A stretch of 64,000 nucleotides of DNA from Membranipora membranacea (lineage: Eukaryota > Bryozoa > Gymnolaemata > Cheilostomatida > Membraniporidae), in contig OU612065.1 of assembly GCA_914767715.1 (NCBI GenBank), positions 27,902,001-27,966,000 of the forward strand, given 5' to 3'. The translations under genes were made by a program, and so were the position numbers. Positions 271 through 56,001 of the stretch are shown here, piece after piece. The notes below the pieces were generated by a model, which saw only the letters and a list, made by a program, of their open reading frames with translations, was not told the origin of the DNA and ran no database searches. The stretch's first letter is position 1; each line of letters opens with the position of its first letter.

Positions 271-302
271 CAAGGAGTAACAGGGGAAGCTGTGACTCCT
301 TG
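271..302. mobile_element. Micro-palindrome insertion (CAAGGAGT type)
   Basis: A 32-bp near-perfect hairpin beginning CAAGGAGTAACAG and ending CTGTGACTCCTTG, with one arm mismatch and a short loop. It is flanked by GTAGAAG (264-270) and ATAGAAG (303-309), a 7-bp duplication with one mismatch. It belongs to a family seen at several places in this window. It sits just upstream of the minisatellite. Confidence 0.6.
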
Positions 303-325
303 ATAGAAGAAAAAATTGATTTCGG

Positions 326-949
326 GTCAAAAGGCCACTGCCAAAAAGCCACTGGCCACAAAGCCACTGGCCAAAAGGCCATTGGTCATAAGGTCACTGG
401 ACAAAACGCCACTGGTCATAAGGCCACTGGTCATAAGGCCACTGGTCTAAAGGCCACCGGTCTAAAGGCCACCGGTCTAAAGGCCACCGGTCTAAAGGCC
501 ACCGGTCTAAAGGCCACCGGTCTAAAGGCCACCGGTCTAAAGGCCACCGGTCTAAAGGCCACCGGTCATAAGGCCACCGGTCATAAGGCCACCGGTCTAA
601 AGGCCACCGGTCTAAAGGCCACCGGTCTAAAGGCCACCGGTCTAAAGGCCACCGGTCTAAAGGCCACCGGTCTAAAGGCCACCGGTCTAAAGGCCACCGG
701 TCTAAAGGCCACCGGTCTAAAGGCCACCGGTCTAAAGGCCACCGGTCTAAAGGCCACCGGTCTAAAGGCCACCGGTCTAAAGGCCACCGGTCTAAAGGCC
801 ACCGGTCTAAAGGCCACCGGTCTAAAGGCCACCGGTCTAAAGGCCACCGGTCTAAAGGCCACCGGTCTAAAGGCCACCGGTCTAAAGGCCACCGGTCTAA
901 AGGCCACCGGTCTAAAGGCCACCGGTCTAAAGGCCACCGGTCATAAGGC
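326..949. repeat. 15-bp minisatellite array
   Basis: About 41 tandem copies of a 15-bp unit (core GGTCTAAAGGCCACC). The first units are diverged (CACTGGCCAAAAGGC, CACTGGTCATAAGGC), the middle is almost perfectly homogeneous, and CATAAGGC variants recur at two internal units and at the end. Because 15 is a multiple of three and the unit lacks stops in several frames, long spurious reading frames arise on both strands: KATGL repeats on +, RWPLD and FRPVA repeats on -. The + frame has no ATG near its start. I see no splice sites or conserved protein, so I treat it as non-coding satellite. Confidence 0.95.
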
Positions 950-2770: not shown

Positions 2771-2931
2771 GAGTGTTGTAAGACATGTTGTACAACTTGC
2801 CTTACAGCACTCAAGAACAATAGATGTTTAACGATATAGGCTGTATAACAATGCTGTATTGTATCTAAGAACAATGCTGTAGAGGCCGTGAGAGCTGTAA
2901 GACCTGTCCTACAACATGTCTCACAACACCC
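2771..2931. repeat. Inverted repeat about 37 bp, foldback or MITE-like
   Basis: The left arm at 2771-2807 (GAGTGTTGTAAGACATGTTG...) is an imperfect reverse complement of the right arm at 2895-2931 (...CAACATGTCTCACAACACCC), with about 87 bp between. No clear target duplication was identified. The size and structure fit a small non-autonomous element. Confidence 0.55.
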
Positions 2932-3800
2932 GTTTTAGTGCCCATTCAGAGCTGCATAAATTTTCGTAATGTTGGTTTGAGTTGACGCACAATTAGGCCT
3001 CAAGACTCCAGATGCCTATGCTTATGAGCCTTCATTCACCATCGCTAGCTGGTCCGATCAGTCCTAGAATTGGCAGTTTTGTGACTCGACAGCTGACTCG
3101 GCTATCATCCAACGGTTGGTAGCAAGTCAGCCCTGTTCATCCACGGTGTACGGCGCACCGACAGCAAAACCAGCACAACTGGATTGTTCCAGAATCTCTT
3201 GCTTCAACCCCTTCACAAAGACGCAATGACAGAGGTATCGAAATATTCAGTCAATACCATCACTCCAGCAAAGGTGTCATCAACAACTACATCCAAACAG
3301 CTAGCAAGAAGACTTGCGGAGCAGTATTTCATACATATGTCAAATACCCTGGAACTGGACTGGAATGCCCTACTTGCTGGAACCCACCTATTGCCCCCCC
3401 CCCCCCCTGTGTGTATAGCCATCAAAAGCTGTTGCCAAATTGTTGCTGACCGAAAATGTTAAACGGTATAAAATAGGGATACTAGAAAACCAGTTTCTAA
3501 AGTCACAACAGATGCTGGTGCTGGAAACTGGAGTCATCAAGGTACGAGTTATGGTACAAATGTGCTTTTAGAACGGATAAACAAATTGTAAAGATGTAGG
3601 TCAACTATGATCCAGTCACTACTATTACCATAGATAGTAGTAATAAATATATAATATGATTATAAGGAAGGAAGACTACAGCTGCAGTACACCACAGATG
3701 GAAAAGCCACTGTACTCACTTGCACTGTGAATGTATACATGCTATAACAACTGAACGGTACACAAGTCTTGAGACGTTGTTTTGCTAGAATTATTCTAAA

Positions 3801-4341
3801 CTTAAAGACTTTGTTTGAGGCTGCTCTTTTGTATCACATCTTATTCTCCATATTTTATTCTATCATGTGAGCGATTTTCAGCTTTAGAATCCAAATATTG
3901 AGGAAGTTATGGCCTCTCAAACTTCCAGGGTGATTGCCTTCAATCGGCATTGGGAATAAGCGGATGTTTCCCCTGTGGTATGTCACAACCATAGACATGT
4001 GACATAGACATTATGAGTTATTAGTTAATACACTAATAATCACATAATAATTGATGATCAAAATTCAGACCTGGGTGGGAATCGAACCCGGGTCCCCATA
4101 CCTATAGGCAACGACGCTACCATCACGCCACTTGGACCAACTAGGTTAGCTGAGTGTGACGTACCCAAGGGATTGCCGGCTGATTTTTACTGCCGATAAA
4201 TTGCCGTCACCTTGGAAGTTTGAGAGGCCATAACTTCCTCAATATTTGGATTCTAAAGCTGAAAATCGCTCACATGATAGAATAAAATATGGAGAATAAG
4301 ATGTGATACAAAAGAGCAGCCTAAAACAAAGTCTTTAACTC
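3801..4341. mobile_element. Foldback element with about 138-bp inverted arms enclosing a tRNA-like sequence
   Basis: Bases 3801-3938 and 4204-4341 are near-identical in opposite orientation; both arms contain the words for TCATGTGAGCGATTTTCAGC and its complement. The 265-bp centre contains a minus-strand tRNA-like segment (4072-4145). No coding frame is present. Either a TIR element captured a SINE head or a SINE inserted between two arms; the sequence does not decide between these. Confidence 0.75.
4072..4145 (-). repeat. tRNA-derived SINE head (degenerate tRNA-like)
   Basis: Read on the minus strand it contains a box A-like stretch (GTGGCGTGATGGTAGCG) and a good box B (GGGTTCGATTCCC) at tRNA-like spacing. 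The acceptor and T stems do not pair properly, so it is unlikely to be a working tRNA gene. It lies inside the foldback element. Confidence 0.5.
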
Positions 4342-4914
4342 AACAAAATTTCCTTCGCAACCATACACCTGACAGTATTTACAGGGCTCGATATCACTGC
4401 CAGCAATGCTACTGAAATGGTTACAGCCGGAGTTGTTGTCAGTCATACTTACCATTAATTTTCTTTGAGAAGTGGTTCATCAGCATAGTCTGTCATAATT
4501 ACAGGTGTATTACCTGTGGTTACTATCGAAGCCAACCAACAAATGACCTGGATTCGATTTGTAAACAAGTGCTGCGAGTGTGAGTGAAGCTCATGAGTTC
4601 AGTAAAGTAATCAACAAAATAGTATGTAAACAATCATTTAGGGCTCCTTGGGTTTGCAAGCCCCGATTGGGCCTTTTCTATAGTACTGTTTATGGTATCC
4701 AAAATCAACCAGTCAAAACCTAGGACTTGGGATCCCATACCCCTAGAGTAGGTAATCTACACAACTAGGGCTGCAAAATCAGGATCAGAAAACAAACCAT
4801 TTCTAACATTATACATATTTTTTACCCAGGAGTGCTTAGAATTGCTTGATTGTAAAAATATTGCCTAACTTCGGCAGAACAAGCTGCATGACTATGTTCT
4901 GCTTTGGTCCTTTG

Positions 4915-4979
4915 CTAGTCTCTAAGGTCATTGTGCCTCATGGCCTCCAACTAACAACTGCAGCAGCAGCAATTCAGGT
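4915..4979 (+). CDS. Possible upstream TANGO6 exon
   Basis: There is an acceptor-like TTTGCTAG before 4915 and a donor CAG|GTAGTC after 4979. The frame reads VSKVIVPHGLQLTTAAAAIQ without stops. Its outgoing phase (0) does not match the next candidate exon at 5178 (incoming phase 2), so an intervening exon would be missing or this call is wrong. Confidence 0.25.
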
Positions 4980-5177
4980 AGTCACATTCACCTTTCTGTC
5001 AGTATGATTGTAGAACCAGTATCTCCTCATACCAGATAGAAACAGACTCTCGCAGCTCCTACGAGATTGGTGTTTGAGTGATTACAGCTGATCCATTTCT
5101 TGCCTTTGCAACCCTTATGTATGTATGCCACTCCGAAATCTTTCCACACATTGAATCACAATTTTCTTCTACTTAAG

Positions 5178-8100
5178 GTTGACGATTAGCTTAAAACTTA
5201 CGATGGGAAATCATTGTGATATTCAGGAGATGTTTGACTTTCTGAGCCAGATGATTGAATTCAACAAGAATGGTAGGCTAAGTGTCAACTCCTCTACGCT
5301 TTACTAAATTTGCTGAATAAAACCATGTTTATAATCTGCTGAGTAGCCATTTATAGTCATAGCCCATGGCCCAAAGGTGGCTTCTTGACATGTGGCCCGC
5401 TTGTGGTTTTCTGATTGCCTTGTTCTATTTGATGTGATATAATATTACCTGTATTATGATTTCACAGACTCCCCGTTGTGCTTGTTATTTGTATCGCATT
5501 ACCGGGGGATTGTGACATCAAAATGCAGAGAACGGTAGTTACCTTCCATTATGGGAGGCACTTTTTCCACATCAATAATACATGCCAAGTAGAGCATTGG
5601 ATTTTTTCACCGTGTCAAGCTGACAAAACTTTATCAAAAGTAACTGCCTGACTATAACATGCATTGGTACTTGGGTGGCCTTTAAGAATTTGTTATTTGT
5701 CAGCAAAAAAATTTGATTTTGTTGGATCTCTGTATAAGATTCACTGTAAAAAAAATAGATTCTCTAACTCAGCTGACAAATTTTAAGTATTATTGTGAAA
5801 CCCCATATACAAATTACTTTTCAATATTGGTATTTGAAAATGTTATCAAGAGAAAGTCAAAGCTGAAAGTGGTGGCCATAGACTTAATAGTATATTAAGT
5901 CTATGGTGGTGGTTAAGTGCAGCTATAAAGAAAAGAAAGTTTTCTATGTCAGCTTTTTATCGCAGTTAAATTCTTCGCAGCATATCACTTTAATGTTCAT
6001 TTCAGGAATAAAAAACATACATGCTTACATGCCAAAATATGTCTCAATACTTCAGTGATCTGAATATATTGTATGTCCAGTCTAATTATTCAATCGGACA
6101 ATTCAAATTAACCTCTATAATGATGCCCTTGGCCTGTCGCCTATTCTTATAGAGAATGGCAGCGCTGGAGATTTTGGAAATCTGGAAGAAATGACTAATA
6201 GAAGGCTGTCTGATCATTCACTCAAGTTTTACCAGAGGTTTCCAGACTTAGGTAAATTATCACCTCAATCTATCAAATCATTGCTGATATGGTTATGATA
6301 TGGGATCGGACACATCAGTTACCATATTATTGTCAGGAAGACCTGGAGCTGACCTTATAATCTCAACTGAATGACACAACGCAACTCAGTATCAATTGTT
6401 ATCGGTCTCAATTTTTCTTGTGCCCAGTGACCAAAGTTACAAGTTATCATCTATATTTTACATTACCATGCTAACCGGACCAGAATGTTCTGAGTAGTTC
6501 TCTTACTATAATTATAGCAGTATAGCAGCAGAATGTTCAAGAACATCGATCTAACTGCTCATCTAGCTGTAAAGCTTCTTCAATAATATAGATATATATT
6601 TGTGTAGCTTATTTCAAGGTTCAAATGAAAGATACGAAGTGTATGTCAGGCGGCGAGGCGGAAAAATTCCTTCAAATTCTACTATACCTGCTAACTCAGC
6701 TAAATCAAACAATAGAAAGCCAGATGGAAGAGTACAGACTCAACAAACCAAACAAGTCAATCCACTTACAGTGTTTTGTCTATGGTGATAACTGTGCCCC
6801 TCCACCTCTCAGCCCTGACGTGCTCAGTATTGGTAAGTTATCAGACTCTGCCCCTGCACCTCTCAGCCCTGACATGCTCAGTATTTGTAAGTTATCAGAC
6901 TCTGCCCCTGCACCACTCAGCCCTGACGTGCTCAGTAATGGTAAGTTATCAGTTGCATAGCAAACCAGATGTGAGTACGAGAAGATCACTAAATTCCAGT
7001 TTTGTTTAACGTCCTGTCACAAAATTTGTTATATGGTTATGACATTTTATACTTGCAAGTGTACATTATAAAGGCACTGACTCAAATTGTAATAAGAACA
7101 AATTCATCGCCTTGATGAGTGAGAGTGCTTCTCAAGGCCAAACTGTTGAAGTTGATCTGAATTTTTGACTAACAGAAGAGGTTAAATATCATTTTTATAA
7201 CCGGTGGATGGTTGCTACTTTTTGTCTCTCCAGGACAGAATGACATACTGAGTAAAGTGTTACAGTTCATTGTTACACTTGGTATTCTACCACATCTGCC
7301 TGTCGACGTAGGCCTTAGTATCAACTCTAGAAGCCAATTTGCAGATTTGATCAGCTCACTTGTTCACTCAAATACTGAAAGCCTGTGTCACAATGTTTTG
7401 ACCATACTGAATACTGTCAAAGCCGCACATATACAAAAGTAGACTGTTTCTCCTCCAATGATAATCATATTTTCTCTTGACAGCTGTGTATGGTAGACCT
7501 CTTATTTCCTTTAGAGTAACTTTGAATTCTTTGAATGAATTGGAACTCTAATTTCTGGGTTGAAAACATGCAGTGGTAGATGATCTAAAAAATACACACA
7601 CGTCTCGTACAACAAAAACCCAATGCATAGCTTTCATTTTAGGATCGTTATTCCTGGATAAACATGTCAGTGATCTGTTAGCTGGTCTGATGGTTGTCTG
7701 TCACTACCAGCAGCAGTCACAGAGCAGAGCATTAGAGTACATCAATACAGTCTCTGAGTCACGCATAAACCCAACAAGCATGTGAATAAAGCTTCACCCG
7801 GTCACAAGGTAATGGCAAATGAATTAATACAGGCTGAGATGGATCATTTAACCATGAAGAGTTATCCTCCCCTCATAGTGAGCGAGATTCTCATGTTACA
7901 GGGTGGTGGTAGAGCAAAGGTCAGCCTCAAAACATTCTGTTAATTTGTCAAATAATCCGGGTTGTGATATTATTGGTAATGGAGTGATAAAGCTGGCAAG
8001 CCCATATCACTTGCTGTAAAATTTAAATCGATCTTGTGATTGAGCAATGAAAACATGAATGTTACATGTAAAACCACAAATACTGTTATTTGCAGACTCC

Positions 8101-10596: not shown

Positions 10597-10854
10597 GTGA
10601 GAGAGAGAAAGAGTAACTGGTGTCCTCAGATAACACTTATGAATCAACCTGTTACTTCTTACTTATTATCTAACTATTCTCTAACTATTCTCTAATTCTG
10701 ACAGTAAGAGGTAGGTAGGTAGGAGTAAGGAGTAGTCTCCCTCTGTTAGAAGGCCGCTCGCTCCGTAACATAGCAATCAGGTGTCACAATCCCTTAGTTC
10801 AAATATCATTGCACACCACACCACTGAATGTGGCAAATTTACCAGCAGTAACAC

Positions 10855-12402: not shown

Positions 12403-12423
12403 CGTAGACTTGATAAGTCTATG
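12403..12423. repeat. Degenerate micro-palindrome (CATAGACTT type)
   Basis: A 21-bp imperfect hairpin made of CGTAGACTT, a 3-base loop and AAGTCTATG, related to the copies at 5876 and 50033. The target duplication is not clear, so this may be an old or partial copy. Confidence 0.4.
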
Positions 12424-16439: not shown

Positions 16440-16980
16440 TACTTGAGTCACAAAGCACTGATTTACAATATCCTTTTTAGCAATGGTTATGATATATGGT
16501 AGAAATTACCATCTCAGATAGCTCTGTTAGGAAAGATCCTAAATGGGAAAGAGGCGTGGTCTTACACTGATAGTTATAAATTATCCAGCTTTTGTGTATG
16601 GGTGGTCTAAAGGGAGTTGACCATCTTCCTAATATTGACAGTTGTGTTGTTTGTTGCAAAGCCTTCATGTGTGGTCCAACCTTGACAGTCATAATGTATG
16701 AAGCTATCACAGAGTAAGGATATATCCTTACTCTGTGAAGCTATTCTGCTCCTGTCGACTGGCATTTGTAATTAGATTATACTAGGATACTTGTGAGTAT
16801 CCCACAATGCACCTTTTTGGAATTCCCAGTAAGATCAAGTGAATAACAATAATTTATGATCAGCTTGATCCTCTGTGGAATCTCAATTTCAGGTTGCGTT
16901 GCTGGACTGTCAATAAATTCCCCATTCCGATTGAGATGTGTTGTTTAATTAGTTTTGTTTGTTTTCCACAGATATAAAGA
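16440..16980 (+). repeat. Copy A of a WDPCP intron-3' segment
   Basis: Parallels 21960-22618, the intron before the first recognised WDPCP exon. The shared order is the ACATACATTACT region, GTGGTCT stretches, a CCCACAATGCAC block and the terminal GTTTTCCACAG acceptor followed by ATA. The exon that should follow is missing: a poly(TA) tract and the 3-kb foldback element lie there instead. The micro-palindrome at 16708 is inserted in it. Confidence 0.7.
16708..16737. mobile_element. Micro-palindrome insertion (CACAGAGT type) with an empty-site copy nearby
   Basis: A perfect 30-bp palindrome (arm CACAGAGTAAGGATA) flanked by exact AAGCTAT duplications at 16701-16707 and 16738-16744. The homologous site near 22384-22400 reads through ...GAAGCTTTTCTGCCC without the insert, so gain of the palindrome with a 7-bp target duplication is directly visible. 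Confidence 0.85.
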
Positions 16981-16992
16981 TATATATATATA

Positions 16993-19977
16993 CCATAGAG
17001 TTATTATATGCTCTAGAGCAGGCAATGCAGGTGCTAAAAACGTCCTACTCAATTACTGCGAAATCCATGACACAAAGCAATCTGGTTGTGCATGGCTAGT
17101 GACTGTATCATAAAACTTATCATTGAGAATACACATAATGGGCATGGGAATTTAGATTTTTAGAGCGCTTATAGCCATATTTTTGGAAAGATTTTCATGT
17201 GACACCATGTGGATCACTTGCAGGTATCTTCACTTTCAATTCCATGGCGCAACGAAATCTGGTTGTGCGTGGATAGTGCATGAATCATTGACTTTATCAT
17301 TGAAAATATTAGAATTGTACATACAAATTTAGTTTATGGAGCATTTGTAGCCATTTTTTCAGAGAATTTCACATGTAACACCGTTAACATCCCCTAGGGT
17401 TTCTTCTCAACCAGTCGGTATAAAAACTTTTTCCTATGCTCCCATTAAAATAAGCCAAATATCAACCGCAAACCCGTGAGCTTAAATCCCAATGACAGGG
17501 CTAGCTGGTTCCTGCCACTTGCCAAGCATTTAACTGTGTCCTGTCTCTCAAACTTATATGTTGCACACTCAGTCGGTTTACTTTATCTGTTCAATTCCAG
17601 CTATTTGTGATAACATGGAGTACAAGTAGCCTATGGAAAAGTATTGAAGGTGAAAAGGTTTGCTGCTTTTTCGTTTTTAGAGAACTTTTAGCAATATTTT
17701 TGTAAAACCTTTCATGTCACACTATAAGATGACTTGCAAGTGATTTCCTTAGCAGTCAGGGGACAAAAAGATTTGTGTTATCCCCATTAAACACCAAAAT
17801 CTCAACCGCATACACATCATCGCGATAAAATCACAATTACCTGGCTAGCCGGATTTTGCCACTGCCACTTGCCTGCCAGTTTAACTGTGTCCTGTCTCTC
17901 TAACTAAAATGTTACACACTCACTGAGTTCATTTTATCTGTCCAGTATTATGACTTCCAATTATACAACGCGTACAAAATTTTCAGGTTTTGGTTTGGCT
18001 ATATCATTTAAAGCTCTTAATTACCTCTCCGGGTGGCCACTCGTTTTTGGATTTTCCGAAACTATTCAAGCCAACACAGCTGGTTAAATAAATCAATGCA
18101 TAAACCTCTCTGCTGAGTCGCTGAATATCAAGAAACATCGAATGGTCAACTCAAGAATCATACTTGTCCAGCTTGACTCTAGATTTTCTTAAATTCCCTC
18201 ACTCAGTCTTTAAAATTGTATGAAAATGGCAGTCAGTAATCAGTTGCAACACATTATGGATAACACCATAATATTTCGTCTTTGCAACTTCAATCTCCAG
18301 TTGAGAAAAATACGGAGGGCGTAATTATAGACTTTATTAATATTTCATCTTTAGGTACTTATAATAGTATACAATGTGAATTAAAATCTTTTAACCAATG
18401 TTATATATATCATCGGTCCAAATATTTCTATTTGCACTCACCTTTGCATTCTACCAACTTCCAGAAAATTCTACCCACAAGACTGATATTAAAGGGCAAC
18501 CAAGGTTTCGCAGCAATGCATTGGTGGGTAGGAAATAATGTGCTAGGCAGCATCAGCTTTGTGCATGATGCGGTGCAAAACACAAAGTAGTTGCTGACTC
18601 TAAGCTGGGTGACACTTCAGTTTAGGGGAGGTTCCAAGACATTGCTGTAATAATGATAGAGCACAGACTAAAAAATAACAGGAACAGGAAACTGCTCTGT
18701 GGTATTCCATTTTAGCAGAGTTTGAGTGCCTGATGGATGAATTGTTTCACAAGAATTCTGGCTGAATAATCATCTAAATTAGACTTTTTTCTGTTTCCCT
18801 ATGCAGAAGGTACGATCTGCTATCAATTGATGAGAACCTGTTTGAAACTTTGGTTGCCCATAAACATGACTATATTAGTACTGAGAAAGCCAATATAATT
18901 TCATTCTCTCACCGTGATATTTCTGATTTCTCACCATACTCAAAATAAGAGATCATTTGGTACAGGGGGGGGGGGGGGGTGTGATGCAATTTTCTCTGAT
19001 GGTTGTTTATTTGTAAATGAAAACATCAGCATCATATACAATAATTTTTTTTACACTTTATGATAGTTCAGTAATGTTTGAAATATTTTAAGTTGAAGTA
19101 GAGAGGTGTGTTTGCATAGCGGATGATACACGTTTTATATAAGCTTTTGAGCAACAGTGAAGTAGAAACAACCTTGTTAATTGGTAACTCCTTTGAAACG
19201 ACCGGAATTAGAATTTCTAAGACCTTTGAGTCTCCATCAGAAATGGATTGATGCTATGAAAATAAAAGTCTTGCAGTCAGAAAGTGAGCTGATGAGCACT
19301 GGGGGCTTGTAGCATCATCACATTTAATTTGCAGTGATTTTAGCACCAATCTACTTTGACATACCAAGCAAAAAACTTAATATAATACACCAAATAAAGC
19401 AATGATATCTGAAGAGCAAATCTGAATCTCGAAATTATGTACACTGTGAGTGTGACTGCAAATGAGGCAAGTGGCAAACTTTTACACCTCCGATCACTTT
19501 TACACAGTCTGCTTGTACTTCATTTAATCAAAAATAGAATAAGCCCCTTGAGTGTGTAACATATAATATAAGTAAGAGAGACAGGACACAGCTAATATGG
19601 ATGGCTAGTGGCGGTGAAAAAAATCGAGCTAGCCATTCAGTTTCTATTTCATCACAATGATGTGTTTGCGGTTGAGATTTTGGCTTATTTTAATTGGAAA
19701 ACATAGAAAAATTTCCACTGGCTGCGAGTGAAAATACCTGCAAGTGATCCACATAGTGTCGCATGAAAATTTTTATCAAAAAATGGCCATAAGCACTCTC
19801 AAAATCTAAATTTCCATGCCCGATACCTATATTCTCAATGATAAGTTATATGACACAGGCACTAGCCATGCACAAACCTGATCGCTTCGGTCATGGATTT
19901 CGCAATAATTAAGTAGGACAAAAACTGATGCTATTTTTGTACATATTGTCCACTCTAATGTATATAATAGCTCTATG
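16993..19977. mobile_element. Foldback/TIR element of about 3 kb with 7-bp target duplication
   Basis: The left terminus CCATAGAGTTATTATATGC is complementary to the right terminus, which ends ATATAATAGCTCTATG. ATATATA flanks both sides (16986-16992, 19978-19984), although it lies in a TA-rich tract. Inverted similarity extends over several hundred bases (about 17040-17400 against 19680-19920). The left arm is itself two to three diverged tandem units down to about 17940. Internal open stretches at 18282-18590 and 18808-18948 are not recognised as transposase. It appears non-autonomous and sits exactly where a WDPCP exon should follow copy A. Confidence 0.75.
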
Positions 19978-20751
19978 ATATATACACACATTTGTGCAAT
20001 AAAGTGTCATATATTATTATATTTCCCACTATTGTACCCATAAAAACCCTGGACAATGAATCCATATATAGTGGCTATCAGTGTGTAGGGCATATCTCTG
20101 CGTTGGAGTTGTCCGACCATGTCAGGCTATTTTATCTACCATAAATTACTATTGGGTTAAGGATGCCCAACATGATTATTTAAGAGGATTTAAGACATGA
20201 TTTTTTTGTGGGTCACATAAAATGACTCCTTATCTTTGAGTGACACTTAGTTGGGGCCAAATACACACAGATGACACTTAAAAGTACAGATTTGAATCTA
20301 TATTTATATAGATACATAAATATTGAATGTATTACATGTATATGATAAAGCTTGGACATACAAGTGACCATAATATGATAATTAATAAAATTTATTAATA
20401 GCATTCGATTAGCATGCTAGCTATTCACTGCAAGGTGTCTAGTACTGCAGGAGTGGTTGGTACAATTATATTACTATTATAATGATTAGAATTGGACCAG
20501 AATAGTTGGCATGGCCAAAGGAAATATGGATGCTGGACTGGAACAATCTATGATTCCCAGTATGAGTTGTACCCACCACTCCTGCAGTACCAGACACCTT
20601 GCAGTGAATAGCTAGCATGCTAACCGATTGCTCGCCGTCTAACCATCCCCCCGTATAAAATGCCCTTTTAGATCATGGATATGGTAAGCTCTGCTGCCTT
20701 ATCTTACAGATACAGATTGTGTGTAGAGGGTATGATTAAAATATCAAACTG

Positions 20752-20824
20752 TGATGATGTTAATAATGATGTTAATAATGATGTTAATAATGAATGTTAA
20801 TAATGATGTTAATAATGATGTTAA
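20752..20824. repeat. Short tandem repeat (GATGTTAATAAT)n
   Basis: Five to six copies of a 12-bp unit GATGTTAATAAT, one with an extra base. The other copy of this segment (near 30820) has only a single unit, so the array expanded after duplication. Confidence 0.85.
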
Positions 20825-22067: not shown

Positions 22068-22100
22068 CATTAGCAAGGAGTTAAAGTCTTTAACTCCTTG
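22068..22100. mobile_element. Micro-palindrome insertion (CAAGGAGT type)
   Basis: A 27-bp hairpin (CAAGGAGTTAAAG, one-base loop, CTTTAACTCCTTG) preceded by CATTAG and bounded by exact TATATAG repeats at 22061-22067 and 22101-22107. Related copies A (16.5 kb) and C (32.5 kb) lack it. Confidence 0.75.
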
Positions 22101-28600: not shown

Positions 28601-29450
28601 ATCAAACTTTATTAGAATATAACATAACTATTAAGATCATCTCCCCCGTTTATCTTCCTGTATTGTGTGTGTTCAATTGTCCCTACACCGTCTCTCTGTC
28701 TTCTCTTCCATATTATTCACATCACTTCTTCAAACCAAAAAAATTACTCAACAGGGCATTTTCGTTATATTATCACTATAGATGTAGCTGTGGTCTCAAT
28801 CGTCTGTATTATACCAGTTTGTCCAAGCAAGGAGTAACAGGGTTACTCCTTGGTCCCAGCTAATGTTGAATCTTTTTTGTGATATGAATTTTGCAGGCAG
28901 ATCATATTATCAGGTGCGGTATGTTCTGTTCTTGTTGTGGTATTTCTCCATTATGTTGATATGACTGTAGGTGTACATTACCTAGTGGTTATATATACGA
29001 CCTTGACCCTGGGGTATCACAGAGAATTATAGATGATTTTAACTCTATGATGGTGGATGAAGCCTTAGATTATAATCAGTTACCAGATCTCAGACCCAGT
29101 AATCAGGTAAGTTACCATCTTATCGCTCACTTTACAGGAATTGGCAAAGAATTGAGTAATTTGATATGTTCTATTGGTCAACCCACTCTCAGGAGTCCTA
29201 GTTTGAGTTGCATCAGGGGATACTCAATCGAGACATATCAGATCAAATTTCATCGAAAATGTTACAGTTCGCATCATTGGAAGAATGTTATTCCTCTGAA
29301 TGTATCAATGTACTCAGTCAGTTCAATCACTGCCCTCAAATCTGTAAGTAAATCACACATTTGTTGGTTGAAAATTAATCATTGTGATTATTCATTTTTC
29401 AGGAGATGGAGAGAAAACCTATTAAGGTGATACATTTTGGACTCGTATAG
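22619..29450 (+). pseudogene. WDPCP: WDPCP (fritz homologue), probable pseudogene
   Basis: WDPCP/fritz is the planar-polarity and ciliogenesis effector that works with the CPLANE complex at the base of cilia. Recognised exons: 22619-22850, 23157-23355, 24220-24331, 24598-24683, 25768-25866, 26299-26422, 26751-26925, 27535-27727, 27924-27994, 28971-29106, 29403-29450. Diagnostic stretches are EEAWPWAPM, EWHPSGALLVV followed by NNKGELQ, LEATLGCFYAP, FRFDKAVLLAVDINARDLFM, and the C-terminal KVIHFGLV then TAG, all matching the family as I recall it. Damage: a frame change near 22690-22710, in-frame TGA at 22761, in-frame TAG at 24664, frame changes near 25813, 26755 and 27650, plus missing exons between 23.4-24.2 and 24.7-25.7 kb and no in-place N-terminus. 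The nearby TMC gene is flawless, so I favour real decay, with local assembly error as the alternative. Confidence 0.85.
28828..28852. mobile_element. Micro-palindrome insertion (CAAGGAGT type)
   Basis: A 25-bp hairpin with CAAGGAGTAAC and GTTACTCCTTG arms and a 3-base loop. Flanks are GTCCAAG (28821-28827) and GTCCCAG (28853-28859), six of seven identical. It lies inside a WDPCP intron. Confidence 0.7.
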
Positions 29451-36124: not shown

Positions 36125-39100
36125 ATGTCGGACCACTCCACAGGTAAGTTCAAGATGTTCTTTTAAAAAAAGTTAATGTACTTGACCTTAGTGAATTGTC
36201 ATAAGCTGAAAATTCTAGCTAGTGTTACCTTTTGATAGATTGGGTGAGATTACTGAGAATGACCACACTGCTGGCAATATGGATCAAACTTGCTGTATGA
36301 CAAGGCTAGCTATGCTCCACATGCATAGATTAGCATGATTTGATAAAGATGTTGTTGAAAGATTTGGAAGGACGGAGGTTGTTACGCTGCCCCTCCCGCA
36401 CCCTACCCAGCGCGCCCTACCCGGCGCAGCTCTAGAGGCCACTGTTGATCCCGAGAGTAGAGTACCAACAAAGAAAAATGTCCACTGAGACCGCTGGAAT
36501 TTAATAACAGCTCTTAACCTGTAACATCACAGCATCAAAAAACTGTAGTATCCTAGAGGTTGAGGTAGAGGGCATGCAATTCATAATGCTAGCAAACTTG
36601 ATCTAACGATATAAGTCATTAGTTGAACACAGCACAACAAAAGCTACTGTTGGTTTTTCACAACATCACAAAAGGTATAGGACTACTTCCTTATGATTAG
36701 CCCATTTATAGAGCATAATACATGCACTAGCTAAAATCAATATATACCCTCGCATGTTGTTAATAAGCAGAAAGGACTGAGCTAATACATTTGCCTTTGA
36801 ATGACTGTCATGGTTAGATCACTCAGTACTGTCTTTTGGACGTAATCTGGTGCAGAATTTCATTATGAGCAGGATTTCATAATTCATCGCACAGTTTAGT
36901 GATTGAAATTTATTTGGTAAGTTTTGCTCTTGGTCATTCCATATACCAAAAATATTGTCCAACAATATCACAAGGTTATGGTGCTGGTAACGTAATGGTC
37001 ATCATTATAACCATAGGACTGCCGCAGTTACTGATTTTGGCCAAAAATCAGGAACTGCGGCAGTCCTATAACATCTCAATATGCTGTCTCAAAGCAGCTG
37101 ATCGCATGAGCTAGCTTGACGTTGGCCAGGTGTTATTCCCATGTGCTACAGCGACTCATTTATCTATGTTGCACATGCACACAGTCACAATTAAAGTAGG
37201 TTTGATAGGCATATCCATATATATATATGTACATATAAGCCTACCGCTTGATCGCATGATCGCATGATATGTGAAATGTTATTTTATGATGCATTTTTAT
37301 CTAATGAAATTCCACTCAGGTGCATCGCCTCATTGCCGATTAAGTTGGAAAATATTAAGTCATACATACATACATACAAAGTAACAAAATACACCATATT
37401 TTTCGTGATCAGAAATATTGCAGGAAATTTATGAGTTGGTGAATCAGGTAGGCCTGTCAGGAATGAGAACCAACCAAGGAGGTAAGTTTGTGTAGGGATA
37501 CTATCACAACATTACCTGATTTATGGCATTTTGTTCAACCTTCAGGCAAAGTGCTGGACGAGTTGCCTTCATATGTTGCTCTGAAGTCCGTACAGGGGCC
37601 TAATCAGGCACGAGAAGACATCAGGCAGCAAGTTCACAGGCAAAGACGCGGTGCCATGGCTAGTATTAAGTCCAAATTCTCCTACAACAAAGTGTCGCCA
37701 GAGGGCCAGTCAATGCGGGTGAGTGTTGCAGCTAGATGTTTTAGTTGGTCCATGTTTGCAGAAGACCAGCTGATATGTTGTATACCCACTTCAATGTAAA
37801 CAAGGCTGTAAATGAGCTACCATTTCATCGCTGTACTAGGCAGCAGACTTTCAATATAATGGTAGACTGAAAATCTTCAACCTGTTGTCGTAATGTACTG
37901 GTACTGTTAAATTCACTACTTGTTAGTCATCTGGTACATAAGGCCAGCATCGAATGCACAAATCATGCATGACAAGAAGTGATGGAAAAGATACATATAG
38001 ATATGTAAACCACTTTCATTATTTCGCCTTATTTTGTTTTACCAATATAATGTAGATCACCATAATTTCCGCTTTCATATACTTTCATATTGGTTTCATC
38101 TTTTCCTTCCAGTCAAAAATGTATCAGGCCTGTCGAAAAGTTCAGCACATGCTGCCGGTACGGTCATTTGTTTTGTCGGAGCTTTGCTTCATTCCCTGCT
38201 GACTGCTGACTAACAATACACGAATTACCTTGTTTTGCTGTGATTCACCTTTTTTTTATGTTGTTTTGTTTGTTCCCCTTTCTCTTTATATTCATTCTAA
38301 CCATGCACTTAGGAATATGAGGTTCATAGGAAACCCTCCACTAAACATCGCAGGAGGATGAGCTCAATGACAACTGATGAAGCTTTAATGGTAATTTGTA
38401 TGTCCAACATTTAATACCTTTTCACAGAATGGATGCATCACTAGATTGTTTTCATTATGTTTATTCTTGATGTATAACCTGACCTCATTTTGTATATTTT
38501 CTCATGGCTGAAACCCTTGCTCATGAGTCATTAAATATCAGTGTACATATTTAGACATTACAATCTCCTACGTTTCAGTGCTCACTGCTCAGTGGCTCTG
38601 ATCCTACTCCCTCAGTGACCAGTGTATACTCGACCTGGGCTTCTCCTTGCTGCGCTCAGTTGGGCCTGCCTGTTAAAAATGCATGACCTTTTATTGATAG
38701 TGTACATGTATTATGCTTAGTATCAAGATTTCTTTTGCTATGATCATAACCTAACAGCTTTCTCAAATCTGGTAATGTAATCTTTGTATCTGCATAATAT
38801 CTGCGATAGCCACTAACATACTGCTTCAAAACGCAAAGAAAAATCTATCTGTGTCTACTTGCTGCAGTTTTGTTTCTCCTTTGTCTGTATCCTACCTGCT
38901 TCAATTAGTTTAAGTTGCGGCCTCATGTCAACTCTTTGTTGTACTATATAGATGATGTCACTGCGGAATGCCGGTAATCAGCAGAATGAGATCAACCTGT
39001 CAGATTTGGGATTTGAGGTCTGTGATACTGAAGAGGAACAGCTTCAGCAGTTGAAGAGACTGAGAGACATGCCTTGTCCTATTGCTGTCAAACGCATGTT

Positions 39101-48100: not shown

Positions 48101-51100
48101 TTCAGTGCCAACCATTAATTCTGTAATGCATATTATTCCATTGTTTTCAGACCATCAATACCAATGAAGAATATCAAACCTGGCATGTAGCATTACAGCT
48201 CCTCATCGAGTTTTCACCATCTCTAAGTATAACATTCCTCAATATCCTAGTTCCGATGGCGTTTGAGAAGGTAGTTAGGGGGGAAGACTACACGCCCGGA
48301 GTGGAAATCCAGCTCACACTCATCAGGTTGGTTAACAGCATGAGTCCAGATAATGGCCATATGAAAATATCCATGATATGATAGTTTGTTTACAAAACAT
48401 GTCTAGAAAGGGAAAACACTTCAACATCACAGTCATTCACACTCATGGAAAATGTTTGTTTTAACTATCCCTTCGCTCTTATTTTAGGACCGTGTTTCTG
48501 CGACTCGCTTCTCTTGGGATTCTGTTCTTCACTCTGTACTCTGAGATAAATTGCTCTAGTAAAGATGAGTGTAATGTGGGCATTGTCGATATTTGTTTGC
48601 CCCTTCGCTGCTGGGAGACCGGTATCGGTCAGCAACTATATAAACTTGTCATTATGGATTTCCTGGTCAATCTAGGCATCACAATATTCGTTGAATTTCC
48701 CCGAAAGTGAGTGAAAATTTGAATTTGTGACTCAAATCAACATGTATGTGAAACTAACAGTGGTGAATTAATCCATGGGACTCTTATGGCTCTCATGGCA
48801 TTCTTATTTTAATAATCACAGCACAGAAGAAGTACAATGGATTGAGGGCCCTCCCTTTCACTACCATATTTGACGCATTATTGTCAAAAGGACTTCTAAA
48901 TTTGCTGTCATAATTGAATAATCATCCTTTCCATTTTCAGAATCATTGTTAGCAAATGCGACTGCAAGCTTTCGAAGATTATAGGATATCAGCAGTTTGT
49001 GATTCCTAAGAATGTCCTCAACTTGGTATATTCTCAAACTCTGTGCTGGTAAGAAAAAGTAGTTTGCCCTTTTAATGTAATCAGGTGACCTGTTAATATC
49101 CCCTTAGTTTTTACACGCGCCCCCAAATATGCTATCTGGTCTCAGATGACATTGCCAAATCAGGCTATGGATGAACCTTTTGGATGACCATGTTTGAGTT
49201 GAGAAGGATCTCAGCATACTCCATTGTCAATTTTCTTTTTCAGTTTTATTTAGGCTAAGCTTTAGCACTTCAGCAGTTGGAGCACTTAGACTTATTATAT
49301 ATGTATCCATGATATGTTTTGCTGCCGCTGTATCAGTGTACTGCAGATATGTTGTAATGGTATAATAAGACACCTCAATTGTCCATTGATGTCAGTGACA
49401 GCTTTAGCCGTTAGATCCAAGAATTGAACTGTTATTTTAGTTTTGCCACAGTATATTTAGAATAAGCACAAACTGTTTCATTTAGTTAGTTGCAGATACC
49501 TCTACTTTCCAACTTTGCGCCAAGTACTAGTCCATTGAGGGCTTCTAATCTAACTCATTCTTTGTTATGCTTCATGTACATGTTTTTGGTATATTAGGTT
49601 GGGAGCATTCTTCAGTCCACTCATTCCTGCCATCTGTGTTGCTAAACTCTTCATATTTTTCTATACAAAGAAGGTGAGCTATATTATGTTATATATATAT
49701 ATATCTACACTAATCTGTATGTGGAGATAATTAGTACCTGTATATTTGTTAGAATTGTCTTGATTGTTTTGCTAATATGTGGTCAAGTTTGAATGACCGT
49801 GTTTGGGATATGAATTATCTCAGCATATTCCCTCATCAATGTTTTTTCCAACCATGTTTACTAGGTTTTGCTGACGCTGTTACAGTGTAATGATGCTATA
49901 TTGTAACGATATAGTAAGACAACTCTCTTGTTCATGTTAATGGTGTTAGTGACAGCAGGAAATGTCCCAAACCCCCTGGTGATAGCCTTAGCCATTAGAA
50001 AAAGAGATTTTAAACAGGCATTTAAGGCTTGCCCATAGACTTAATAATTATTATTAAGTCTATGGGTTTGCAGCAGTATATTCAGAATAAACAAAATCTG
50101 TTGCTTTTACTTTTTTGCAGATATCTCTACTTTCGAACTTTGTGCCAAATACTCGTCCGTTTAGGGCTTCTAAGTCTAACTCATTCTTTGTGATGGTTTT
50201 GCTGTTATCATATGTTCTATGCTGCCTTGTCATCGTCTACGTGATAGCTATGTGAGTAACTGCTGCTGTAAAGTATCCTCTCTTTATACTTTAACTTCAA
50301 ACAAAGAATAAGAAATCGTTATTGTGTATGCTAGCCTCTATTAGTGTCTTTTCAGGGAGCAAGGCACTCGTTTCAACTTAAACCATAAGCTGTTTTATTT
50401 TATGTTATTCAGCGCAACACCATCTAGAGGCTGTGGACCATTCAGACCGTATAAAGTAATGTATGAATCTATATTGGCTACTATTTGCGAATGGCCCACA
50501 CAGTTTCAGCAGTTCCTAACATATACCACCTCGTTCGCTTCCAGCATCCTCATAGTTATTGCTCTCAGGTTGGTTGGATTTATATAATCCCATCATTGTA
50601 TGTGGGTAACATGTTTATGTATTACTTTCCTTTCTCTTGGCATCTTGCATTTTTTGTGCGAAAACTCTGCAGCGAAGTCTTTGAAACATTTTTGTTCACA
50701 TGTTAGAATGAGTTTTTGCATTGCAAGGCAAATACCCATTGACAAATTGGCCAATAATGAATCTTCTAATTATAATCTTCGTATTTTTTTATAAATTTAG
50801 ATTATCTATGACCACTAAAAATTTCAATTGAAGCAGTGACATGTGGAACAGTTCAATTTCATGCAATAGCAAGCAGTATAGAAATTAGCATTGGGAATTT
50901 ACAGGCATTCAATGTCATTAAATCAAATCCTAATACCGATAAATCTCTGGGTGTACATTACACATTTGTCATGCATGCCCCGTAGCTGTATTCGCCAACT
51001 ATCAAACCAAACAACCAGCTAGGCTTATGAGAATATCAGCGTCCAACCATGATACTGACTCCCTCCCCCCCCCCCCCCACCTTCGATGTTGAGTTCGCTG

Positions 51101-53887
51101 GCTGAGGTCAATATATAGTGAATGATAGATTTTTTCAGTATGGCAATAAAAGGTTCTACATCGGTATTGTTTGCAGTTTGACAATTTACTATCAGAATAT
51201 TGTTGTACAAGGACAGAAAGTTCGCGTAAAGTTGCTAAAAGATCAACTGCTAATGGTAAGTCAATTTTCCTCTGAATCTACCAAGAGAAGATTTGACAAT
51301 TAAGTTATTTGGAGTTACCTTTCCAGTGGAGCGAGCATATGCCTGGGTAAATTAGCTGACAGATAGAGACGGATTAACACAACATCTGGAATACAAAAAG
51401 CTGTCATCGCTTTTAGGTTGTCCGAGGCTAACCAAGAGTTGTAATCAAAGTTTCCACAACCAACAAGTTTAAATATCTGCTCAAAAAATTATTATTAGCT
51501 AGAAAATGATGATCTCGTTAGACTGCTTTCATCTTCTTGATTATCTCACTTGTGTCAATTATAGGAAGGAAAAGACAAACAGTTCTTATTAGCTAAGCTG
51601 AACGATGTTCAGGGTGGCAATAAAAAGTCTACGGACGACAAGCAGAGACAATCTCAAAAACAGATCACAGGTGGTGATGGGAGAAACCATAGCAAAGTCT
51701 CTACTAAAGATGTGAGTAAAAAGTTGCTCACTTGTTTGTGCTCAGTTTTGGTCAAGGAATGTATCAGGTACTATATTATGGTCATGAGAGAGTTTCAGGA
51801 CGTCTCATGACCAAAATATGGCTGTACTTGTCGATTTCTGAACATGATTGCAAGGCGCGCGTTACAGTTTCTTGCACCGTGCCCATTACGCTGCCATTTT
51901 GACCAATAGATAATCTGTTATTATATATTGTTTGTTCACATGCCTTTCCCTTACTTGTCTCCAGATCCATACAGGTAAGTTTTAGTGATACTTGGCTACT
52001 AGTGTCTCCTAATCTAGAGCACTGCTGTTACCATATTTCAAATAGAATTATTCCCTTGACATTGTGTGCTGTAATCTAAGCACCCGATTAAGGTAGCCGG
52101 GTCACAGGATCTAGAAATATAACATTGATAAATCAGTAATAATTCCTAAATCTTGATATTATGGTTACGCTTTTCTGGCATTACAACTCTCTGATTTGAA
52201 CTGTGGGTAGAAAACAAGACTGTTTCATGTTTTGTCTTACACAGATGTAGTATTGGACATCTTTTGAAATATTCAAAGCTAACATATTGATGGATGCTGG
52301 TGTGCAGTTTCAGTGTTAACACTCGTTATGAACTGCTTGATATAATTATTTTAAGACCATCAGTAAAGATTTGACTTTGACCAATATCACAAGTTAGCCA
52401 CAATTTTGGTTATTAATTCAGTTCATTTGGTGAGTAATTTCTTTTGTCAATAAAGGAAGAGGAGGAGGAGGTTAGTATTTTACGTTATAATGCACTACAC
52501 AGGGGTTGACACTCAAACTCTGATTCTCTGATATTAGCTGAAATAATTTTTTTTTCGCTAGAATTATATTTCCTTTGTGGCGCTGCTTCCCCAATCGCTA
52601 CCTGAGTAGTTAGTAATGATCATGAGAACTTATCGTCAAATACCCTACTTGTCTACCAGGTGCTCAGAAACCCAGCTTATTAGGAAATACAAATTTCATT
52701 GATCCATATGAGCCATCAAACCAATAATTACTGTCACAACAGCACTAATAGAAGTTGTGTACCTTCATTTGTTGTGAATTTATAATTTTCATATTTAAGT
52801 CTTTTTTCTTTTGTACTCGCACTTGTGTCTGAATGTCGGGATAAATGCTACAGCTTGGTTATACCCATGCTAAGGAAGTTTTACTGAAATGGTATGGTGA
52901 TTGGTGAAATAGTCTTGTCAATGTTAGATTAGATAGATAGATGATATTAACTTTATTCATCACCAATCAATGCAACGAGGGCAAATGCGACCGTGTGCAA
53001 AAAAAAGATATCAAAATCTATATGTAAAACTATATGTAAAACTATATGTAAAGATATGTAAAACTATAATACATAGACCAATCAAATTTGGATGGCATTT
53101 TCATGTCATTTGGTAGTTGGCATGCTTCAATTTCAGTATGGTACCTCCGTCCTTGTTCTGGAAATCTTCTGAAAATTGTCAACACAGAGTAAGGATATGT
53201 ATCCTGACTCTGTGAAGTCATGTTCACTATGGTTCCGTGCTTCGACGCCAACTGTGACTATGACGCGGGTAAGCCTGCGTGTAAATCCTGCCTGCGACAG
53301 AACTTTTTGAAGTTTCATCGTCATTGAAATTGGAAGCAACCATTCGAATCGGAAGCGGACAACTCATTCGATACCCTCCATTCGAAGTAGGGACCCTCCC
53401 TGTTTGAAGATAAGATTGGATAATCTAGATTTGCTAGTAGCATAAAAAATGAAGCAAAACTACTTGGCTGGAAAGTTTAATGATCGAATACTTGCGGAAT
53501 TAAAACTGTTACTTATACCTGGTCGTTCTGCTTTTGGCACTAACAAAATTACGTCTACTCCTCTTAAAACAGTCGTTTAAAACATGGTCTGAATCCTGAT
53601 CAAAATTCTTCCCTGTTGTTGAAATTAGAAGCATGGATCCATAGTGTTGGTTAACGTTTAAAGTCTTCTATCATTCAGAATTTTGCTCTTTGTCTTAGCA
53701 TTGAATTTGCCTATTATTACTTTTCAAACCACTTTGAATTTTATCAAATAGCCATCCCCCCCCCCCCCCCGACACATATATCACCTAATTGTCAATTTGT
53801 ACTATTGTACTATGATCTTTACAGGTGTGGTTTGAAGAGAATGGAAGAGGATCTAATCCACCAGGTTACGTTGGGGCTCATATGTGA
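36125..53887 (+). CDS. Transmembrane channel-like (TMC) protein, complete 23-exon gene
   Basis: TMC proteins are multipass, TMEM16-related ion-channel or mechanotransduction membrane proteins. Exons: 36125-36143, 37461-37481, 37546-37718, 38113-38157, 38313-38390, 38952-39103, 41613-41682, 43445-43526, 43734-43892, 45394-45545, 46115-46269, 46561-46708, 46993-47154, 48151-48326, 48488-48706, 48941-49048, 49598-49673, 50121-50251, 50413-50568, 51177-51255, 51565-51711, 52456-52470, 53825-53887. They sum to 2586 nt (861 residues) with every intron phase matching. Family marks are KEIEGHFGTGVLSYF (about residue 214), FGTWDYAL, the TMC signature CWETGIGQQLYKL (about 572), and RPFRASKSNSFF (about 677). 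An extracellular-type loop has N-glycosylation sites (NTT, NGT). The N-terminus is basic and cytosolic, and the C-terminus is charged, with a 15-bp EEEEE microexon (least certain) and a final GRGSNPPGYVGAHM. First-exon choice and microexon are inference. The subfamily is not assigned. Confidence 0.9.
37013..37066. mobile_element. Longer micro-palindrome insertion, 54 bp
   Basis: A hairpin with arms ATAGGACTGCCGCAGTT and its complement and a centre TTTTGGCCAAAAA, with few mismatches. Flanks are TATAACC (37006-37012) and TATAACA (37067-37073), six of seven identical. The arm sequence differs from the other families. It lies in the second part of the long first TMC intron. Confidence 0.6.
40010..40130 (-). 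repeat. tRNA-like SINE fragment
   Basis: The minus strand shows a box B-like GAACCGGGTTCATTTCCC and an upstream box A-like segment (TACTCGGTTAGCATCTAAGG). Similar 'CTAACCGA...GCTCG' words occur in the tRNA-like patches at about 20600 and 30700, so one SINE family is plausible. It lies in a TMC intron. Confidence 0.4.
41068..41581. mobile_element. MITE with about 185-bp terminal inverted repeats
   Basis: Left arm 41068-41255 and right arm 41395-41581 are inverted copies. Ends are ATAGACAGTTTTCTGAGCTC and its complement. Internal shared words include CCAAACTGGAGAGAGGACAA and ATAACCCTCTTT. No coding frame. Target duplication is not clear (TA-rich flanks). It lies just before TMC exon 41613. Confidence 0.85.
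44317..44405 (+). repeat. tRNA-derived SINE head
   Basis: On the plus strand, TTTGATAGCGCATTTGATTG resembles box A context and GAGTTTGATGCCTGC resembles box B, at tRNA-like spacing. It does not fold into a good tRNA. It is intronic in the TMC gene. Confidence 0.35.
49496..49575 (+). pseudogene. Dead duplicate of TMC exon 50121-50251
   Basis: After a good TTGCAG acceptor the sequence matches the 5' half of the live exon (LLSNF.P.T.P.RAS) but has lost one base (TCTAATCTAAC against TCTAAGTCTAAC) and ends before the hydrophobic part. Inclusion would break the frame. The live exon sits 625 bases downstream. Confidence 0.8.
50033..50064. mobile_element. Micro-palindrome insertion (CCATAGAC type) inside duplicated intron
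   Basis: A 32-bp hairpin starting CCATAGACTTAATAA and ending TTATTAAGTCTATG, flanked by GGCTTGC (50026-50032) and GGTTTGC (50065-50071). The sister intron copy at about 49440 has no insert at this position, so it was gained after the local duplication. Confidence 0.8.
53183..53214. repeat. Micro-palindrome (CACAGAGT type)
   Basis: A 32-bp imperfect hairpin (CACAGAGTAAGGATA and complementary ATCCTGACTCTGTG) almost identical to the insertion at 16708. The target duplication is not clear here. It lies in the last TMC intron. Confidence 0.6.
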
Positions 53888-56001
53888 AAAATTAACTCCC
53901 TCTCCTTCGTGGTCTGGAGATGCTATAAATTACAATAAAATACTGCAAGCTTACGACATTCAGTTACGTTCTTGCCTCGGATTCCTGCCCATCAATTGTT
54001 CTATTTGTGCTACTTGCTACTGAAGCTCTTACTCTGAGAGGACTTTCATGTGATATGGTGGCATAGTATCATTACTTAATTCCTTCATTATGGAATAACA
54101 TAACCCAACAAGATATGCCATCATCATATCATCGCTGTAGTAGTGTGGTATAATCTGCTCAATTATTCATGTCATATATATTTTTCTAGTGTGAATGATT
54201 TTACGAAGGTTTTTGTGTGCCACTCCATTGTTGAATGTGAACATATTGACAATCATAGTGCGATTGTGACCACACAAAATCCAAAATGAAACCAACTTCA
54301 ATGACTTTAAACAAGTAATTTTTTCTGGTTCAAATCATGGTATTTTGCCCAATATTTTCATCATTTATATTGTTATATGTATAACAAGGCTAAAGTTTAC
54401 GGCTACTATTGACTTCCTTGTTATGTTTATGTGCAGCGGAAGTTTTTTTTATTTGTTTAACCCATAGACCCGTTATGGCTCTCCCATCCCGTAAATCCGT
54501 CCTGTGAGCACCTGTGTTGTTTTCTCTTATACCAGTAACATAAACCAAGGAGTTAGAGACAACTCTAACTCTTTGCATAAACGCATATGTGTTATACATA
54601 ATGATCTAATGATAATATCTGTCCAAAATGAACCTGACAATAACAGCATCATACCAAGGTTAACGGTATAACCCTTTTTTTTATCTTATAAAAGAACTTT
54701 GTGCATCAGTGAAACTGTGTGAAACAAATATTTTCTATTTACCCTTTGATCTAATAGTTGACTGAACAAAGTCTGAGGGCTTACCCGTCACCAGTTTCAT
54801 AAAACTATCTTTTGAGGTTTTTATGTGTTAGCCCTATGAGATATTATGATTTTGAAATAAACCCTGTTGTATGTAAAAAATGAGGATGTAATTAACATAA
54901 CCGTAATCAAGGAAAGGTAAAAACTATGATCGCACTCTGATATCAGTGACTGAAGCGATGGTAAATAAGTCAATGGCTGATGCAACTTATTTGAACAAAA
55001 AATTTCTCCCAACCATTGCAAGCAGGGCCATGTAATCAATTATCATGTAAACGGACTGCCAGGGGGAGGGGCGCACCATGATGTAAAGGTGTTTATATAC
55101 AATGTAAATCTTTATTTCTTGTTCTTGGATCACCGAATCAAAGAAATAAAACATCAATATATAACAGATTTTACTTCCGAAACGGGCTGGAAAGAACAAA
55201 CAAAACACGCAATACTTGCTGTTTTGTGTATACACATACCTACATGACAAGTTGGCAAGGGTCCATATCTGGTAGTGTGTCGCCCACCAATTGTGGGGAA
55301 AAGTTTGAAATTTAGGCAATTGGTTATAATCGGTTAAATACCAGACCTCATCAAACAAATAACTATAATTTCTTGTTTTAATTAGGCAACCTGGTACAGT
55401 AAATACAAGAAAAACATTGGACTAAGCTCCTAGGTGCAAAAATGGGATGGGTGTAGGGTCATCTGGTATCATATAGTCTGAGCCCCCAAGACTTTTGCCC
55501 CTCGCCCGACGGCCCCCTGGCGAGGGAATCGTAGGTACCGTATCAAATCGTAGGGTAACTAGCTCAAATATCTGGTGTTACCCTAGGGAATAGGGGTACT
55601 TGTCAAAATATGGTGTAATGTATGGTTGAACCAGTCATTGATATCATATTACATCAATAATAAGTACCTTGCTCTTTCATTTTGCATAATAAAGGATTGT
55701 CTTCCCAGAAAATAACTACACAAGGTTTGTGCGCATGACTATAGAACATGTTCAATATCAGCTGATGATAATTCAACCAATCAGATTCAAGTATAGTAAT
55801 CTTCTGAGCTGAAGCAAAACCACTTCAATAAAAGCATTATTTACAGAGCGCTACATGCACGTTGTGAGCGTTCTTCCTTCATCACTACCCATTCAGTTCT
55901 TGCTAAGGCTGTAGCTTGGTAGACTCGATACTTGCTAAATTGACAATCGCGCCATCATCTGATTACTACACTGGTGCAGCAGATTGAGTCGACCGTAGAG
56001 G
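53888..56001. other. TMC 3' region and MSMO1 upstream region
   Basis: AT-rich DNA after the TMC stop, with no convincing exon on either strand. It contains the micro-palindrome at 54546-54575. Bases immediately before 56002 should hold the MSMO1 5' UTR and promoter, but I see no clear TATA or initiator. Confidence 0.5.
54546..54575. mobile_element. Micro-palindrome insertion (CAAGGAGT type)
   Basis: A 30-bp hairpin (CAAGGAGTTAGAG, 4-base loop, CTCTAACTCTTTG, one mismatch) flanked by exact CATAAAC at 54539-54545 and 54576-54582. Confidence 0.8.

Follow-up and report, generated by a model that had tools for sequence, protein, structure and literature searches.

Short palindromes in the window

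What are the short palindromes, many of them flanked by short direct repeats, that lie scattered through this part of the Membranipora membranacea genome? The window, by which we mean the whole stretch of 64,000 nucleotides that was analyzed, corresponds to C1:27902001-27966000 of a 339,339,785-base assembly in 18 contigs, and the exons of TANGO6 and Fritz/WDPCP recognized in it with Pfam identify it as animal nuclear DNA. A preliminary description took the palindromes for a class of very short, related, insertion-derived elements with target duplications. The relatedness, the origin by insertion and the duplications were borne out by the evidence presented here; the very short elements were not, as full-size P-type elements share the ends of the palindromes (types A2 and B). 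Judged by sequence comparison, the micro-palindromes are very probably excision footprints of P-superfamily (P/THAP9-type) DNA transposons, and the word scar is used below in this sense (Table 1).

Re-reading of the window confirmed hairpins at the positions previously named, with adjacent 7-bp repeats at 16708 and 54546 (7/7) and at 271 and 28828 (6/7). Such repeats were not recovered at 5876 and 50033, where the hairpin proper is CATAG...CTATG, flanked by a repeat of 8 bp, or at 22068, where the proposed TATATAG repeat lies 6 bp off the hairpin and the adjacent 7-mers match at 3/7 positions by eye. The palindrome at 37013, earlier considered a probable member, has unrelated arms, and its exact 6-bp TATAAC repeat fits only with the borders shifted by 1 and 3 bases. 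Clear flanking repeats were absent, as already described, at 12403 and 53183 and likewise at the decayed hairpin at 60982. In place of the single duplication length of 7 bp that had been proposed, 7 bp applies to the B and C types and 8 bp to A.

A scan of the window for palindromes of 22-60 bp with flanking 7-mers matching at 6-7/7 positions returned six, two of them with exact repeats. Thirty dinucleotide shuffles of the window together gave nine (mean 0.3), including two exact (mean 0.07), and a single shuffle alone contributed four palindromes and both exact cases. Two of the six palindromes in the window (20300 and 37027) are non-members. By itself the shuffle test is not decisive, and it is the common arms and the genome counts that decide. 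A chance origin of the palindromes was ruled out by the genome-wide controls with reversed patterns more than by the window shuffles. A paired-end scan of the window with CAHRGASTHA (≤1 mismatch; flanking 7-mers at 6/7, or at 5/7 with arms at 11/13) found nine pairs, namely six micro-palindromes, one element of 2,984 bp whose ends are of the same kind, and two chance-like pairs.

Table 1. Putative excision scars and related features of the window, with coordinates counted from its first base
Feature	Palindrome or element	Span listed	Strand	Flanks and remarks
C2-type scar	271-302	264..309	.	GTAGAAG/ATAGAAG, 6/7
A1-type scar	5877-5905	5869..5913	.	13+17 nt, 1-nt overlap; 8-bp flanks GTGGTGGC/GTGGTGGT, 7/8
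Decayed A-type scar		12403..12423	.	clear duplication absent
B-type scar, most frequent 30-bp form		16701..16744	.	exact 7-bp duplication AAGCTAT
Foldback-like element of 2,984 bp, unexcised	16994-19977	16986..19985	.	ends CATAGAGTTATTATATG / CATAGAGCTATTATATA; nested inverted repeats
C1-type scar, 27 bp		22074..22100	.	adjacent duplication absent
C2-type scar	28828-28852	28821..28859	.	GTCCAAG/GTCCCAG, 6/7
Palindrome of 57 bp, non-member		37013..37069	.	arms unrelated; from the earlier list
A2-type scar	50034-50064	50026..50072	.	15+17 nt of A2 TIR; 8-bp flanks GGCTTGCC/GGTTTGCA, 6/8
B-type scar, one arm base mutated		53183..53214	.	clear duplication absent
C1-like scar	54546-54575	54539..54582	.	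exact 7-bp duplication CATAAAC
Decayed C2-type scar, opposite orientation		60979..61003	.	duplication absent

Other repeats were also observed in the window. Positions 345-950 hold a tandem array of ~15-bp units (GGCCACCGGTCTAAA) in which several frames are open. At 3788-4352, an inverted repeat pair of 174 nt (89% complementary) encloses a stretch with a B-box-like motif that appears tRNA-like by eye; this may be a SINE lying within a foldback element. Nested inverted repeats at 41068-41581 (101 nt at 92% and 92 nt at 86%) probably represent a foldback or MITE-like element.

Arm families and target duplications across the genome

Palindromes with perfect arms and ≤30 bp between them were counted in the whole 339-Mb genome for three arm types. 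The A arm CCATAGACTTAAT gave 158 palindromes, the B arm CACAGAGTAAGGAT 612 and the C1 arm CAAGGAGTTAAAG 121, each against 0 for a control with the reversed pattern. The resulting 891 loci are a lower bound that excludes decayed copies, other arms (C2, the CATAGAGTTAT type and D) and A copies lacking the outer C or G, and there are probably many more scars beyond them. In a survey of 264 kb (the window and 200 kb around A loci), the C2 and CAATGAACT (D) types were also found with 7-bp repeats. A length of 27 bp was counted by hand in 29 of the 50 C1 places among the matches listed. Viral contigs gave 0 matches to the A palindrome and a raw count of 35 single matches to CAAGGAGTAACAGGG.

For A, the first 20 of the 50 loci listed were fetched. 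When the hairpin is taken as CATAG...CTATG, the flanks matched at 8/8 positions in 10 and at 7/8 in eight, and a clear repeat was absent from two, the tandem double scar L064 and L079. In L064, positions 4980-5040 hold a tandem pair of A1 scars without an outer duplication, and the first scar of the pair is shortened. The A pattern demanded an outer C and G, so that the G-N6-C form of the duplication was partly imposed; its 8-bp length was not, because the matching left G and right C fall outside the pattern. Independently of the pattern, G-N6-C flanks were seen at four of five elements of a 4.0-kb type that were found via their transposase and read at the left flank, while the duplications TAGCCAAC of an A2 element, ATATATAC of the 2,984-bp window element and AGTGAGGC of the scar at L105 have the final C and lack the initial G.

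For family B, 20 of 50 listed copies were fetched, comprising 15 of the first 16 and five picked for unusual centres. Exact 7-bp duplications flank 15 of these 20, one has 6/7, one an exact 8-bp repeat and three neither; a disappearance of the repeats in copies from elsewhere in the genome, named beforehand as grounds for refutation, was thus not observed. The B target repeats are AT-rich and often read ATAnnAT.

An empty site was available for comparison at L105. There, the order AGTGAGGC, CATAGAGTTATCACTCTATG, AGTGAGGC (an 8-bp duplication around the scar) interrupts a P element in its left part, and the same site is continuous, without the insertion, in L101, L102, L103 and L059. The arms of this scar resemble the ends of the 2,984-bp window element.

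Full-size elements that share the arms

Profile searches detected 78 matches to Tnp_P_element (PF12017) and 134 to TNP-like_RNaseH_N (PF21787) in the genome, and 0 to either in 14 control genomes. The preliminary description had proposed to look for full-length elements sharing the ends and a transposase, and both were found, for the A-type and for B.

A 4,042-bp P element at C2:7591912-7595953 has 31-bp ends CATAGACTTACTAATAATAAATCTAGACAGG / CATAGACCTACTAATAATAAACCTAGACAGG, the duplication GCTCAAAC and frames with THAP, Tnp_P_element and TNP-like_RNaseH_N domains. A near-identical left end occurs in four of the five sister copies fetched and not in the fifth. The A-type parents combine the features expected of the P superfamily, a P-type transposase between TIRs (in the 4,042-bp element), TIRs of ~31 bp starting with CA and target duplications of 7-8 bp. 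Three matches were obtained for protein relatives of the A-type transposase. A related A2 element of ~1.74 kb, beginning at 2530 in L067, has ends CATAGACTTAATAATAAACCTAGACAGG and the duplication TAGCCAAC; it carries the exact A2 arm sequence, and both of its ends read CATAGACTTAATAATAAACCTAGACAGGACACTGTA, with the right tip one base short. This element gave 0 blastn matches to the fetched transposase loci and may be non-autonomous.

The element of 2,984 bp in the window is flanked on both sides by an exact 8-bp repeat, ATATATAC, evidence that its AT-repeat context weakens, and five ORFs inside it gave no Pfam match above a cut-off. At L059, positions 120-136 hold an end like that of this element (2 mismatches in 17), ~30 bp outside a 4.0-kb P element. 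L063 contains, at 9821-9943, an element of 107 bp with ends CATAGGCAYAAGGAGTT and an exact 8-bp duplication GTATCGAG, possibly a P-type MITE.

The 14-mer CACAGAGTAAGGAT of family B is found at 1,723 + 1,682 places genome-wide (7 and 0 for the control), and four unpaired pairs among the places listed lie 526-703 bp apart. Two such elements of ~700 bp, the MITE-like copies of B, were read at their ends, which are identical over the 40 and 35 nt covered; the elements are bordered by the exact 7-bp duplications ACAGTAT and ATAATAT. A longer B end, with ≤3 mismatches, occurs 484 + 452 times (control 0), and among the 100 occurrences listed, none of which has a mismatch, 20 pairs are spaced at 678-705 bp and a single pair at 5,915 bp. 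This last pair (C3:29036945-29042859) brackets matches to Tnp_P_element (28.2 bits, cut-off 23) and TNP-like_RNaseH_N (125.3 bits) together with an open frame of 317 aa, which by coordinates places a P-type transposase between B TIRs in one interval among the 100 ends listed. At ≤3 mismatches there are at most 452 two-ended B copies against 612 perfect B scars, a comparison in which more diverged B copies stay uncounted and the repeat counts are lower bounds.

An 8-bp and a 7-bp family thus both belong to the P superfamily, B by coordinates and domains. The anatomy of the scars suggests the same parentage for A1, C1, C2 and D.

Anatomy of the scars

P transposase leaves 17-nt 3' tails (PMC7776569, PMC2895639), and the excision junctions of Drosophila P{wa} described in the second of these reports combine an 8-bp repeat, 17-nt tails, microhomology and templated inserts (PMC2895639). 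The scars very probably arose in a corresponding manner. An element would insert with a duplication of 7 bp in the B and C types and of 8 bp in A; the transposase would later cut one strand at the element tip and the opposite strand 17 nt into each TIR, and each side of the gap would keep a 17-nt single-stranded TIR tail. Identical tails could pair only where they are self-complementary over a few bases, as at TATA in subfamily B2, and end joining would proceed by annealing, by blunt joining or with filler copied from the tails. The expected product is a pair of target repeats that enclose ≤17 nt followed by ≤17 nt in inverted orientation. The insertion step is shown by the duplications and the empty site, and the tail limit by the comparison of B scars with B parents. 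By analogy with Drosophila, the 17-nt cut would also apply in Membranipora membranacea, with a repair enzyme of the polymerase theta type and with events timed to the germline.

With a centre of ≤30 bp allowed, no B scar among the 50 listed continues into either of the B TIRs read beyond nt 17. The most frequent B scar measures 30 bp (24/50 listed, hand recount), which fits 17+17 nt minus an annealed self-complementary TATA, a reading noted from this commonest scar before intact B ends were read. The first intact ends read carried another tail, CACAGAGTAAGGATAAG (GGATAAG), that does not match the TATA expectation, and a further B end shows CACAGAGTAAGGATATA followed by CAG, as the TATA-annealing reading required. 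If most B parents belong to the GGATAAG subfamily, the 30-bp form would instead be a 15+15 joint. Pure-TA B scars of 28, 32 and 34 bp (5, 8 and 1 of the 50 listed) fit other registers of TATA annealing.

In family A, the most frequent A1 scar has 34 bp (8/50 listed) and would correspond to 17+17, or could be 19+19 with CTAG annealed. Compared with the full TIR (10 of 12 rechecked), A2 junctions kept 12-17 nt, except for single sides of 18, 18, 19 and 28 nt, of which the 18-, 18- and 19-nt sides possibly result from chance extension. These lengths are bounded from below by the search patterns (12 and 14 nt), and the classing of A junctions used a 17-nt reference, so that longer retention is invisible there. 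The palindrome with 28 nt of one TIR (G000:C2:24052246-24052301) resembles an internal deletion more than a simple 17-nt scar. Of the 21 A fillers of ≥4 nt, the one from this palindrome was excluded and the other 20 were compared with the tails; their longest matches sum to 116, as against a mean of 89.7 and a maximum of 107 in single-letter shuffles, none of 2000 of which reached as high.

Alternative explanations

The palindromes could be elements in their own right, micro-MITEs of 24-54 bp that move themselves with a P-type transposase acting in trans, and the single 30-bp form common to 24 of the 50 B copies listed, in varied flanks and often with exact duplications, agrees with such mobility. 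However, the other centres vary like repair joints, the fillers resemble tails and full-size parents with the same ends were found. Beyond the TIR tips the copies contain just a short centre that varies, with no common internal sequence of the kind that defines a MITE. The Drosophila P element has binding sites for its transposase internal to the TIRs (PMC7776569); nothing internal is left here. Altogether, these points make self-moving micro-MITEs quite improbable. Local hairpin events, in which replication slippage or snap-back repair would copy one arm without any transposon, agree with the observation that the two arms within a copy often resemble each other more closely than arms from other copies. 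Yet the same arms recur at hundreds of loci with 7- or 8-bp direct repeats, the empty-site comparison shows an insertion, and intact parents with duplications exist for the A-type and for B, which leaves this explanation scarcely credible.

The palindromes might instead be footprints of a different superfamily, for example hAT. The ends of hAT elements often have CA at positions 1-2 and G at position 5, and CATAG, CACAG and CAAGG fit this pattern. By the same end pattern, hAT-like elements are present in the fetched loci; presumably of this kind are short elements at L055 901-1327 and L066 2319-2676, with 8-bp duplications and CAGNGG-type ends. But hAT excision alters the flanks and is not known to leave ≤17 nt of each TIR, and here P-transposase domains lie between the matching ends, so that a hAT origin appears highly improbable. 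Excision of P-superfamily elements is thus the reading that we carry forward.

Significance and comparison with known systems

Read as P-element scars, the palindromes would make the 17-nt stagger, known from Drosophila biochemistry, legible in genomic sequence for 7-bp and 8-bp families alike, and hundreds of apparently independent joints formed from identical ends would allow natural end joining to be compared between genomes. They would also record past activity of transposon families, and they advise caution in annotation, where a very short palindrome between target repeats may turn out to be a scar and not an element. With at least 891 scars, a 17-nt stagger common to the 7- and 8-bp P lineages and B scars outnumbering two-ended, near-intact parents, the genome would offer a natural archive of double-strand-break repair from which the spectrum of microhomologies and fillers is measurable without experiment. 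We regard this as reasonably likely, and as slightly less so given that the joint predicted for the commonest scar differs between the two B subfamilies. Searches of titles and abstract beginnings in the open-access literature listed no catalogue of P excision scars on a genome-wide scale, and one may nevertheless exist.

Several known P-superfamily systems share parts of the pattern. Galileo has long inverted repeats and duplications of 7 and sometimes 8 bp, a likeness that extends to family B and to the shape of the element at 16994-19977 with its nested inverted repeats. It differs in being a Drosophila family with the target consensus GTANTAC, whereas the B targets here are AT-rich and ATAnnAT-like, and the portions of the two reports available mention no scar class (PMC2775673, PMC4168063). 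The P elements and P-MITEs of Anopheles resemble the present elements in their TIRs of 27-31 bp, 8-bp duplications and many non-autonomous relatives, but the P-MITEs measure at least 205 bp, going by their names (PMC1562414), and the present palindromes have nothing internal. Zebrafish Pdre2/THAP9 is another case of the P superfamily outside flies, with a CA-starting TIR and an 8-bp duplication; its TIR is 13 bp long, the deletions produced when zfTHAP9 excised it in S2 cells were larger, and accumulated genomic scars go unmentioned in the accessible text (PMC10983969).

The closest likeness is to the footprints of the Drosophila P element, which likewise consist of a direct repeat, 17-nt tails starting with CA, microhomology or blunt joints and templated inserts (PMC2895639). 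Those footprints are laboratory events, whereas here there are hundreds of genomic loci, several arm types and duplications of both 7 and 8 bp. The kind of scar is therefore already known from Drosophila experiments, and what is new is its abundance, the common pattern of the 7-bp and 8-bp families and the fossil archive of repair that they provide.
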